From Clostridia bacterium (GTDB lineage Bacteria > Bacillota > Clostridia > Christensenellales > Aristaeellaceae): a stretch of 54,285 bases of DNA. Below the pieces are notes generated by a model. The model had not been told where the DNA came from, ran no database searches, and saw nothing but the letters and a program-made list of their open reading frames with translations. Of the stretch, positions 51,122 through 54,167 are shown in pieces. The translations under genes and the position numbers were made by a program. Location of the stretch: contig JAUMVG010000003.1 of NCBI GenBank assembly GCA_030530315.1, positions 1 to 54,285 on the forward strand, written 5' to 3'. Numbering within the stretch: position 1 is the stretch's first letter; every line of letters starts with the position of its first letter.

Positions 51122-51157
51122 ATAGTATGATTATACTATTCTCATTCTAAAATGCAA
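51122..51157 (-). promoter_or_regulatory. aldo/keto reductase promoter with operator-like palindrome
   Basis: Minus strand: TTGCAT (51152-51157), 16-base spacer, TATAAT (51130-51135). The perfect palindrome arms ATAGTAT/ATACTAT with a four-base centre (51122-51139) cover the -10 box, as expected for a repressor site. Confidence 0.6.
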
Positions 51158-51457
51158 CAGGATTCGGGATGGATTTTTCGATCTGGCAACGCGGAGCGGA
51201 GGGAGGCGATGCTGTAGCATCGTTGACCGAAGCAACGCTAAGCCAGAGCGGAAAAGGCGCCCAAAGATGTTGCGGTTTAGATTGAGAAGAGTATAATATA
51301 TCAAACCGGGGCCCGACGCAAGGCTTCGCTTCCGCGCGGGAAGGCCCGCCGGGATCGATTCAAAAACCATTGGACAGGCCGCGGAAAATATGATAGGATA
51401 AAGAGACGGGATATGGCTCCCGCTCTGTTGACATTATTCAAATCGGGGGATGAAACC
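51158..51457 (+). other. upstream region of cysE with promoter
   Basis: Contains a CGATGCT/AGCATCG hairpin near 51207-51222, then TTGCGG, 16-base spacer, TATAAT (51270-51297), giving a leader of about 155 bases. No T-box motif (AGGGTGGNACCGCG) is seen. A nearer weak promoter around 51373-51400 is possible. Confidence 0.5.
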
Positions 51458-52417
51458 ATGACCGAAGCAAACGACCGCTTCGAGGCCCGCGTGCAGGCGC
51501 TGGCCGACCGCATATTGGACGACTATGGCAACGAGAGGGTCATCGACCGGCTGGAGATGTTCACCCAGCCCGACCGTCAGATCATCGAGGCGCTGATCGG
51601 CAAGCTGCTGCGCCTGGTGTTCCCCGGCTACTTCCGGGACTACACCTATCGCATCTACAACCCGAAGAACAACCTGTCCGCGCTGATCGAGGACGTGGCC
51701 TTCCATCTGAACCGCCAGATCGGCATCGCGCTGAAAGGCGGCGATCCGCGGGAGGATGAGTCGATCCAGCGCCGGGCCGAGGACATCACCGCCGCGTTCC
51801 TGGAGCGGCTTCCGGAGATACGCACCCTGGTGGAGACGGACCTGCAGGCCGCCTACGATGGGGACCCCGCCGCCTCCAGCAAGGCGGAGGTCATCATCGC
51901 CTATCCCGGCATCTACGCCATCACCATCAACCGGCTGGCCCACGTGCTGTACCAGCTGGAGGTGCCGCTGATCCCCCGCATCATGACGGAGTACGCCCAC
52001 AGCAAGACCGGCATCGACATCCACCCCGGTGCGCAGATCGGGCGGTACTTCTTCATCGACCATGGCACCGGCATCGTCGTGGGCGAGACCACCGTCATCG
52101 GCGACAATGTGAAGGTCTATCAGGGCGTCACCCTGGGCGCGCTGTCCACCCGGGGCGGCCAGAAGCTGCACGGCAAGCGCCGCCACCCCACCATCGAGGA
52201 CAACGTGACCATCTACGCCGGCGCGTCCATCCTCGGCGGCGAGACGATCATCGGCCATGACTCCGTCATCGGCTCCAACGTCTTCATCACCCACCCCATC
52301 GCCCCCGGCACCCGGGTGAGCATCAAGAACCAGGAGCTGCTGTACAAGAACGGCCAGGGCTACGTGCTCCAGTCCGACATCCCCGAGGCCGACCCCGCCT
52401 GGTTTTACGTGATCTGA
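51458..52417 (+). CDS. cysE: serine O-acetyltransferase
   Basis: A 319-residue enzyme that acetylates serine to O-acetylserine, the first step of cysteine synthesis. The start MTEANDRFE follows GGGGGATG. The left-handed beta-helix of hexapeptide repeats (about 205-285) contains the catalytic region HPGAQIGRYFFIDHGTGIVVGETTVIGDNVKVYQGVTLGA. The length fits the longer EpsC/CysE subtype of Clostridia. It is followed by a terminator and by the rrf2 and cysK genes, giving a compact cysteine locus. Confidence 0.93.
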   Translation: MTEANDRFEARVQALADRILDDYGNERVIDRLEMFTQPDRQIIEALIGKLLRLVFPGYFRDYTYRIYNPKNNLSALIEDVAFHLNRQIGIALKGGDPREDESIQRRAEDITAAFLERLPEIRTLVETDLQAAYDGDPAASSKAEVIIAYPGIYAITINRLAHVLYQLEVPLIPRIMTEYAHSKTGIDIHPGAQIGRYFFIDHGTGIVVGETTVIGDNVKVYQGVTLGALSTRGGQKLHGKRRHPTIEDNVTIYAGASILGGETIIGHDSVIGSNVFITHPIAPGTRVSIKNQELLYKNGQGYVLQSDIPEADPAWFYVI

Positions 52418-52437
52418 GGGGCAAATTCTGCCTGTTT

Positions 52438-52470
52438 GCGGAGGCCCGCGTCGCGTTGCCTCCGCTTTTT
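52438..52470 (+). terminator. terminator of cysE
   Basis: Perfect stem GCGGAGGC/GCCTCCGC with a 12-base loop, followed by five T. Confidence 0.88.
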
Positions 52471-52500
52471 ACAGCCAGCTGACTTTTTTCACCTCCGCCC

Positions 52501-52532
52501 TTGAAATTCATACTCCCTATTGATATAATGGG
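52501..52532 (+). promoter_or_regulatory. rrf2 promoter with shared operator motif
   Basis: TTGAAA, 17-base spacer, TATAAT (52501-52529). CCTATTGATATAATGGG (52516-52532) covers the -10 box and recurs with two changes in the cysK promoter. Confidence 0.75.
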
Positions 52533-52558
52533 AATAGCGAATGACAGGAGGGTAAACG

Positions 52559-52963
52559 ATGATTTCGACAAAGGGCCGCTACGCGCTTCGGGTGATGATC
52601 GACCTCGCCGAACAGCAGTCGGAAGGCTATGTGCCGCTGAACGAGATCGCGGCGCGGCAGGAGATCTCCGTCAAGTACCTGGAACTGATCCTGAAATCGC
52701 TGGTGCAGAACAAGCTGCTGGAGGGCCAGCGCGGCAAGGGCGGCGGCTACCGCCTCACCCGCGCGCCGGAGGACTACACCGCGGGAGAGATCCTGGAGCT
52801 GACCGAGGGCACGCTGTCCCCCGTCGCCTGCCTGGCTCCCGGCGCGAAGCCCTGCCCCCGCTGCGACGGCTGCCGGACGCTGCCCCTGTGGCAGAGATTC
52901 GACGCGACGGTGCACGACTTCTTCTACGGGGTCACGCTGAGGGAACTGATGCGTAAAGATTGA
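52559..52963 (+). CDS. Rrf2-family transcriptional regulator
   Basis: A 134-residue winged-helix regulator of the Rrf2 (IscR/CymR/NsrR) family: MISTKGRYALRVMIDLAEQ...NEIAARQEISVKYLELILKSL...GKGGGYRLTRAPEDYTAGEILELTEG. Cysteines occur at CLAPGAKPCPRCDGCR, which could hold a cluster or sense redox; CymR, which controls cysteine genes, does not need one. Position between cysE and cysK suggests a cysteine regulator that also controls itself. The ribosome site is AGGAGG. Confidence 0.92.
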   Translation: MISTKGRYALRVMIDLAEQQSEGYVPLNEIAARQEISVKYLELILKSLVQNKLLEGQRGKGGGYRLTRAPEDYTAGEILELTEGTLSPVACLAPGAKPCPRCDGCRTLPLWQRFDATVHDFFYGVTLRELMRKD

Positions 52964-52978
52964 GTTACGCATCATTAT

Positions 52979-53011
52979 CCTATTGACATGATGGGTTTAT
53001 TGCGGTATACT
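52979..53011 (+). promoter_or_regulatory. cysK promoter with shared operator motif
   Basis: TTGACA (52983-52988), 17-base spacer, TATACT (53006-53011). CCTATTGACATGATGGG (52979-52995) covers the -35 box and matches the rrf2 promoter motif at 15 of 17 positions. Confidence 0.8.
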
Positions 53012-53038
53012 GTACAAAACGAACGGGAGATGAACGCC

Positions 53039-53131
53039 ATGCGTCGCGCGCCTTTCATGCACCTCAGCCGCGCCTGTCATATGAGCAGGTGTTGTTGTCG
53101 TGGAAGAAAGCCGCGTTTCTCCTGTCTGTAA
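53039..53131 (+). CDS. cysteine leader peptide of the cysK attenuator
   Basis: A 30-codon reading frame after GGGAG (nine-base spacing). Five of its codons are cysteine (TGT): one at 13, a run at 18-20 and one at 29. The middle reads [11 protein letters not shown], like poly-cysteine leader peptides known upstream of cysteine or sulfur genes in Actinobacteria. Its last codons and stop (53118-53131) form part of the antiterminator. A ribosome short of Cys-tRNA would pause at the CCC run. Inferred from sequence layout. Confidence 0.75.
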
Positions 53132-53200
53132 GCGTGCCTGTGCCGGCACGCCAGGTTCACCCCTATTACAGGAGATTCGCAAGGGATCTCCTGTTTTTTT
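53118..53200 (+). terminator. cysK attenuator: antiterminator and terminator
   Basis: Terminator: ACAGGAGAT (53168-53176) with ATCTCCTGT (53186-53194), then seven T. Alternative: TCTCCTGT (53118-53125), inside the leader frame, is exactly complementary to ACAGGAGA (53168-53175), the 5' arm. A hairpin GCGTGCC/GGCACGC (53132-53151) lies between. The two structures exclude each other. Confidence 0.85.
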
Positions 53201-53234
53201 CACTTCAATTTTCAAGGATGAAAGGAGTTTCACC

Positions 53235-54167
53235 ATGACCAGGATCTTCAAGAGCGCCGATCAGCTCATCGGCAACACCCCCCTCGTGGAGTTCACCCAC
53301 ATCGAAGCCGCGGAGGGCCTGAAGGCCACGCTGCTGGCGAAGCTGGAATACTTCAATCCCGCGGGCAGCGTGAAGGACCGCATCGCCCGGGCCATGATCG
53401 ACGACGCCGAGGCCAGCGGCGCGCTGAAGCCCGGCGCGACCATCATCGAGCCGACCTCCGGCAACACCGGCATCGGCCTGGCCGCCGTGGCCGCCGCCAG
53501 GGGCTACAGGATCATCATCGTCATGCCGGAAACCATGTCGGTGGAGCGCCGCCAGTTGATGAAGGCCTACGGCGCGGAGCTGGTGCTCACCGAGGGCAGC
53601 AAGGGCATGAAGGGCGCCATCGCCAAGGCCGACGAGCTGGCCGCGACCATCGAGAACAGCTTCATCCCCGCCCAGTTCGACAACCCCGCCAACCCGAAGG
53701 CCCACTTCGACACCACCGGCCCGGAGATCTGGGCGGACACCGACGGCAAGGTGGACATCTTCGTCGCGGGCGTGGGCACCGGCGGCACCATCACCGGCGT
53801 GGGCAAGTTCCTGAAGTCCAAGAACCCCGGCGTGAAGATCGTTGCCGTGGAGCCCGCCTCCTCCGCCGTGCTGTCCACCGGCGTGGCCGGCGCGCACAAG
53901 ATCCAGGGCATCGGCGCGGGCTTCGTGCCCAAGGTGCTGGACACCCAGGTCTACGACGAGATCATCGCCGTCGCCAACGAGGACGCCTTCACCACCGGCA
54001 AGGCCATCGGCCGCCAAGAGGGCGTGCTGGTGGGCATTTCCTCCGGCGCGGCGGCCTGGGCCGCCATCCAGCTGGCCAAGCGGCCGGAGAACGCGGGCAA
54101 GACCATCGTGGCGCTGCTGCCGGACACCGGCGACCGCTACCTCTCCACGCCGATGTTCAGCGAATAA
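53235..54167 (+). CDS. cysK: cysteine synthase A (O-acetylserine sulfhydrylase)
   Basis: A 310-residue PLP enzyme that makes cysteine from O-acetylserine and sulfide. The PLP lysine lies in NPAGSVKDR (about residue 43), with PTSGNTGIG binding substrate carboxylate and [12 protein letters not shown] holding the PLP phosphate. The start follows AAAGGAG. Expression appears to depend on the upstream promoter/operator and the leader-peptide attenuator. With cysE it completes the two-step pathway. Confidence 0.96.

Follow-up and report, generated by a model that had tools for sequence, protein, structure and literature searches.

A predicted ribosome-mediated cysteine attenuator in front of cysK in Clostridia

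Results

The leader region of cysK

The window, by which we mean the whole 54,285-nucleotide stretch of Clostridia bacterium DNA analysed here, carries on its plus strand a cysK gene for cysteine synthase A at 53235-54167 (TIGR01139, 452.8 bits against a cut-off of 350.95), the gene placed under control in the model below, and directly upstream of it a gene for an Rrf2-family regulator at 52559-52963 (TIGR00738, 120.2 bits, above cut-off). Between the two, on the same strand, a sequence-only reading had placed a 30-codon leader with a Cys-Cys-Cys run, and this is what we find: an open reading frame at 53039-53131, with its ATG at 53039 and a TAA stop at 53129-53131, led by the Shine-Dalgarno (SD) sequence GGGAG at 53025-53029, 9 nt upstream of the start. 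Cysteine is encoded at codons 13, 18, 19, 20 and 29, always by TGT, and the run TGT TGT TGT (Cys18-20, 53090-53098), which would hold the regulatory codons, is kept as a Cys triplet in three related leaders (L033, L048 and L049). A second in-frame ATG directly abuts the SD at 53030; the start at 53039 is supported because the leader L048 keeps the SD and its 9-nt spacing but lacks the 53030 ATG. A small hairpin, CGCCTGT...AGCAGGTG at 53071-53091, extends into the first codon of the Cys run; similar hairpins occur in L033 and L048, with a shorter version in L049. The element is possibly a pause hairpin.

Upstream of the leader lies a sigma-70-type promoter, TTGACA-17-TATACT (52983-53011, plus strand), with TTGACA at 52983, TATACT at 53006 and 11 of 12 consensus matches; it is the one promoter found by a scan of 52700-53400, where 0.2 were expected. 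The same scan range holds three terminator-like sites against 0.6 expected. The terminator with a T7 tail claimed in the sequence-only reading is present as ACAGGAGATTCGCAAGGGATCTCCTGT at 53168-53194, a near-perfect stem of 11 pairs with a 5-nt loop and seven T (53194-53200), beginning about 34 nt past the leader stop codon.

Elsewhere in the window, an imperfect palindrome of about 170 bp (51122-51303) lies upstream of cysE, folds to -82 kcal/mol (z -9.0) and has eight matches in its own genome at 69-100% identity, itself included; a similar stretch adjoins cysK in another genus (L023; judged by eye), and the element is a MITE-like repeat.

Four mutually complementary segments

The last codons of the leader were said to hold the exact complement of the 5′ arm of the terminator, and they do: TCTCCTGT at 53118-53125 (segment 2) is exactly complementary to ACAGGAGA at 53168-53175, which lies within the 5′ arm (segment 3, 53168-53178), the 3′ arm and T7 tail forming segment 4 (53184-53200). 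The computed energy of the duplex between segments 2 and 3 (2:3) is -12.8 kcal/mol, where shuffles average -7.6 (p 0.014). Folding 53012-53234, a check proposed alongside the original claim, gave z -5.1, with a further hairpin, GCGTGCC...GGCACGC at 53132-53151, between segments 2 and 3. In the minimum-energy fold ACGGGAGA at 53023-53030 (segment 1), which includes the SD of the leader, forms eight pairs with TCTCCTGT; this 1:2 duplex reaches -20.2 kcal/mol, with p 0.084 when taken alone. Segments 1 and 3 are near-copies of each other, as are segments 2 and 4. As the SD region and the 5′ arm of the terminator both complement TCTCCTGT, the layout is the four-segment one of a classical attenuator, and the element is larger than first described, the promoter and segment 1 also belonging to it.

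Modelled ribosome states

We modelled the switch by masking the bases under a ribosome and computing pairing probabilities. With segment 4 not yet made, 2:3 pairing in the ensemble model is 0.18 without a ribosome, rises to 0.62 and 0.73 for a ribosome stalled with its A site on the first or second codon of the Cys run, and falls to 0.01 for one at the stop codon. Once segment 4 is present, a ribosome at the second of these Cys codons still gives 0.71 for 2:3 against 0.03 for 3:4, whereas one at the first Cys codon, with the whole terminator made, gives 0.01 against 0.79. At the first Cys codon equilibrium thus lies with the terminator, and an antiterminator would there have to prevail through kinetics. 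The resulting switch score is 0.73; when the sequence separating the Cys run from the 5′ arm of the terminator was shuffled 200 times, the mean was 0.09 (p 0.025). An untranslated leader is modelled as off by default in the window (0.18) but not in several relatives (L036, 1.00; L048, 0.72).

Cys-run leaders in front of cysK in relatives

We collected cysK upstreams from the genus and family of the window and from the best 80 of a longer list of named genome contigs; for family rows without a locus 60 stretches were fetched by place, and one search contributed its higher-ranked matches. A leader was scored mechanically as an SD-led frame of 8-60 codons with at least three Cys within six residues. 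By this rule Cys-run leaders occur in 23 of 178 unique upstreams, each at least 250 nt long, against 13 of 3560 shuffled upstreams, and frames with at least four Cys in six residues in 9 of 178 against 0 of 3560. The expectation that homologous cysK leaders would carry Cys codons holds in part: such leaders are present in 8 of 23 usable loci of the same genus (L001, L033, L036, L038, L042, L047, L048 and L049, where L038 has a CC pair only and falls below the mechanical rule), and the other 15 loci have no leader. Family examples are L028, L051, L052, L086 and L022; those from named contigs (L118, L119, L134, L140, L157, L116, L145 and L151) come from metagenome-assembled genomes labelled Clostridia, Clostridiales, Oscillospiraceae or Phascolarctobacterium. 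Five of the 24 mechanical matches (L088, L101, L121, L128 and L271) were set aside as unconvincing for the structural work and the tree, and were kept in the counts.

The leaders are strongly associated with terminators. Of the 265 unique upstreams obtained when the class-level set is counted in, 15 of 24 with a Cys frame have a terminator within their last 165 nt, against 23 of 241 without such a frame (p 7.8e-9); it follows the leader in 13 of the 24. This bears on an alternative in which the Cys run is important but acts through Rho-dependent or translational control, like that proposed for cys leaders of Actinobacteria, and the hairpin is incidental. Four leaders (L022, L116, L145 and L151) do stop 42-62 nt short of cysK and have no terminator in that gap, and the Actinobacterial leaders are likewise described without terminators (PMC1262725); for the window, where a near-perfect terminator has its 5′ arm exactly complemented in the leader, we consider such control improbable. 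The same four loci and L269 form a group of their own, with short frames whose Cys codons lie near the end, whose stop codons lie 42-62 nt before cysK and which have no terminator in that interval; they may represent cysteine control of a translational or reinitiation type. In another group (L028, L134, L140 and L157) the leaders have 23-26 codons and share M...CC...(I/M)P(I/M)-stop, with a terminator 18-23 nt after the leader stop; cysE lies downstream of cysK in L028, L140 and L157.

With the Rrf2-family gene upstream on the same strand and ending at 52963, the hairpin might instead be an unregulated intergenic terminator, for example that of the rrf2 gene, beside a chance frame. We regard this as very unlikely, given that the promoter sits between rrf2 and the terminator, that five loci (L036, L038, L042, L047 and L048) have leader and terminator with no rrf2 in the flank examined, and that Cys-run frames are far more frequent than in shuffles. 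A DNA search of 150 family genomes with window positions 53005-53240 gave as its sole other match 24 bases in one genome (G011, L032), inside an oxidoreductase-like frame, which we attribute to chance.

Rebuilt pairing and limited covariation

Pairing and switch tests were applied to the 16 leaders with a terminator, leaving aside five that have none (L022, L116, L118, L145 and L151); terminator arms were picked from terminator scans and folds, some of them by eye (L049, L086 and L119). Fisher sums were taken over 13 leaders, near-duplicates (L033, L038 and L042) being excluded. The 2:3 test, in which the stretch after the Cys run is paired with the 5′ arm of the terminator and compared with shuffles, gave p<0.05 in 9 of 16 leaders (L001, 0.014; L033, L038 and L042, 0.006 each; L036 and L048, 0.002 each; L086, 0.008; L119, 0.02; L140, 0.038), with a Fisher p of 2.2e-6 over the 13; in the other seven (L028, L047, L049, L051, L052, L134 and L157) the 2:3 duplex was not above chance. 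For 1:2 the Fisher p over 13 is 4.4e-5, with p below 0.05 for single leaders only in L052, L086 and L119. The switch score exceeds that of shuffles, with p at most 0.03, in 7 of 16 leaders (L001, L033, L036, L038, L047, L048 and L119), with a Fisher p of 0.0012 over the 13, and is negative in L051, L052 and L086.

The 2:3 duplex is made of different letters from leader to leader: the window uses TCTCCTGT/ACAGGAGA, L036 GGGAATCTCCC/GGGGATTCCC and L086 CCCGGGC/GCCCGGG, and L119 and others likewise rebuild the pairing in a sequence of their own. The proposal that relatives would show compensatory changes fares unevenly: alignable relatives are too conserved a set and hold few, and it is in the divergent leaders that the pairing has been rebuilt. 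MAFFT placed three of six leaders from the genus (L036, L038 and L049) out of register, and that alignment is not counted as covariation.

Segment 2 has nearly the same letters in the window and in L048, where TTC TCC TGT and ATC TCC TGG encode F-S-C and I-S-W, and GGGAATCTCCC lies inside the frame in L036 and L038 but past the stop codon in their homologue L042; segment 2 is kept as RNA and not as peptide. The peptides themselves, apart from Cys and scattered residues, vary widely even within the genus. The leader peptide of the window is rich in Arg and Cys, as might suit a small functional protein, for example a metal-binding one, in place of a regulatory leader; this divergence of the peptides, set against an overlapping RNA segment that is kept even outside the frame (L042), leaves such a protein with very little probability. 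In all, support for the predicted mechanism is good in the window and its closest relatives and partial in leaders further removed.

Rfam scans for tRNA- and metabolite-sensing RNAs

T-boxes are the usual tRNA sensors of Bacillota, and a T-box or riboswitch sensing tRNA-Cys or a sulfur metabolite would be another candidate for control of cysK. We found no Rfam match up to E = 1 in 52300-53400, and no T-box at gathering thresholds in the whole window or in 40 loci scanned (L001 among them). Although T-boxes are stated for synthetase genes in Bacillota (PMC1262725), we hold this to be the least likely of the explanations weighed here. The only Rfam match in the window at gathering thresholds is a cobalamin riboswitch (RF00174, 4034-4217, 62.2 bits); a glycine riboswitch lies downstream of cysK at 3304-3383 of L119, on a contig labelled Phascolarctobacterium.

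A palindrome over the -35 element

A palindrome, CCTATTGACATGATGGG at 52979-52995 on the plus strand, overlaps the -35 element and is a candidate Rrf2-type operator. Among 265 unique cysK upstreams, 32 have a palindrome of the CCTATTGAC...TAGG type over the -35. Where that -35 is within 150 nt of cysK none of 17 upstreams has a Cys leader, against 11 of 15 where it is further off (L038 included); the distant cases without a Cys leader are L014, L029, L072 and L269, the last with a short frame ending in one Cys codon. The Rrf2 superfamily includes CymR and IscR; on the Rrf2-family gene of the window the IscR and CymR models both score below their cut-offs. We infer from the adjacency that the palindrome at the -35 may be the operator of the Rrf2-type regulator encoded beside it. 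A second copy, CCCTATTGATATAATGGGAATAG at 52515-52537, was seen by eye upstream of the rrf2 gene and suggests rrf2 autoregulation.

Distribution of the leader

In the class-level set the rule returned one match (L271) in 87 upstreams against 10 in 1740 shuffles, which is the shuffle rate, and none was convincing; L271 itself was rejected since its frame seems, by eye, to overlap the coding sequence of an upstream gene. A FastTree tree was built from 145 CysK proteins, 18 of its rows bearing a leader (the leader list here includes L038 and L151, both below the threshold of the mechanical rule; the 120 short stretches retrieved by position are excluded). On it leader state changes at least 13 times, a count that cannot tell gain from loss. 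In four loci of the same genus (L003, L004, L034 and L037) the promoter lies near cysK and a leader is absent. From these changes of state, the leaderless loci within the genus and the null result at class level we conclude that the element is patchy and fast-evolving.

Discussion

We propose that 53023-53200 is very probably a classical ribosome-mediated transcription attenuator that ties transcription of cysK to charged tRNA-Cys, a model that draws on the parts read from the sequence, namely a promoter, an SD-led frame with a Cys run, four mutually complementary segments, an intrinsic terminator and cysK downstream. When cysteine is sufficient, the ribosome would pass the Cys run and reach the stop codon, covering segment 2 (53118-53125), so that segment 3 would pair with segment 4 and transcription would end. 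When cysteine is too scarce, the ribosome would stall at codons 18-20 with its leading edge at about 53105-53111, leaving segment 2 free to pair with segment 3, and RNA polymerase would continue into cysK. Were the leader not translated, segment 1, which holds the SD of the leader, would pair with segment 2 and the terminator would form by default. The original suggestion that pausing at the Cys codons would free an antiterminator is thus supported in silico by the sequence, the modelled ribosome states and the homologous leaders. Initiation is probably repressed as well, by an Rrf2-type protein at the -35, which would give two tiers of control, a repressor and an attenuator, as in the trp operon of E. 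coli.

Attenuators of the trp/his/ilv type consist of an SD-led leader with codons for the amino acid of the pathway, four-segment pairing, an intrinsic terminator and a biosynthetic gene downstream. The window shares all of these parts, and differs from the trp/his/ilv cases in its Cys codons, in the gene being cysK, in its Clostridia host and in using the SD of the leader itself as segment 1. Among cysteine leaders, the uORFC-8-2 motif in front of cysS of Rhodobacterales is described as an upstream frame with tandem Cys codons and a terminator with a U run, for which ribosome-mediated attenuation is predicted (PMC8632094). Tandem Cys codons and a terminator are what it has in common with the window; by that description it differs in belonging to Alphaproteobacteria, in preceding cysS, in a two-stem consensus and in having the Cys codons inside the first stem (PMC8632094). 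Cys-run leaders before cys and cbs operons are described for Mycobacterium, Propionibacterium and Bifidobacterium, in that account with no conserved terminator (PMC1262725), and polycysteine leaderless small frames in mycobacteria are cited as acting by translational attenuation (Canestrari 2020, via PMC13236596). These Actinobacterial leaders, like that of the window, place a run of Cys codons in a short frame before cysteine genes, but as described they have no terminator, and in mycobacteria are leaderless, whereas that of the window is SD-led and followed by an intrinsic terminator. According to PMC1262725, classical attenuation was not known for any aminoacyl-tRNA synthetase gene of Firmicutes, and His leader peptides before hisS and hisZ in bacilli were reported later (PMC2965389); the latter, like the window, are regular leader-peptide systems of Bacillota, but with His codons, synthetase-type genes and Bacilli as hosts.

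The claim of a new host-group example therefore needs qualifying. The Actinobacterial leaders are described without terminators (PMC1262725), but the class of device is not new, because tandem Cys codons with a terminator have been described before cysS of Rhodobacterales (PMC8632094); the setting, cysK in Clostridia, appears to be new. No Cys attenuator before cysK in Clostridia was among the titles listed from the open-licence literature, and the survey of Lopatovskaya 2010 might include cases.

More tentatively, and as a possibility to which we give somewhat less than even weight, the cysK attenuators of this gut Clostridia clade may have been gained and lost repeatedly, with unrelated segments rebuilt around the same logic, an optional second tier under an Rrf2-type repressor, the SD of the leader doubling as segment 1 and, in forms like that of the window, an untranslated leader locking the gene off. 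As the leader is present or absent within one genus while a similar promoter and palindrome are kept in several loci, these loci offer a natural series for the origin or loss of an attenuator.

The devices for which Bacillota are known are T-boxes and riboswitches, not leader-peptide attenuators. The element in front of cysK comes close to the textbook form of a cysteine attenuator, in a host group from which such systems have rarely been reported, and a complete cysteine attenuator with an intrinsic terminator before cysK would extend this mechanism to a further amino acid, gene and host group.
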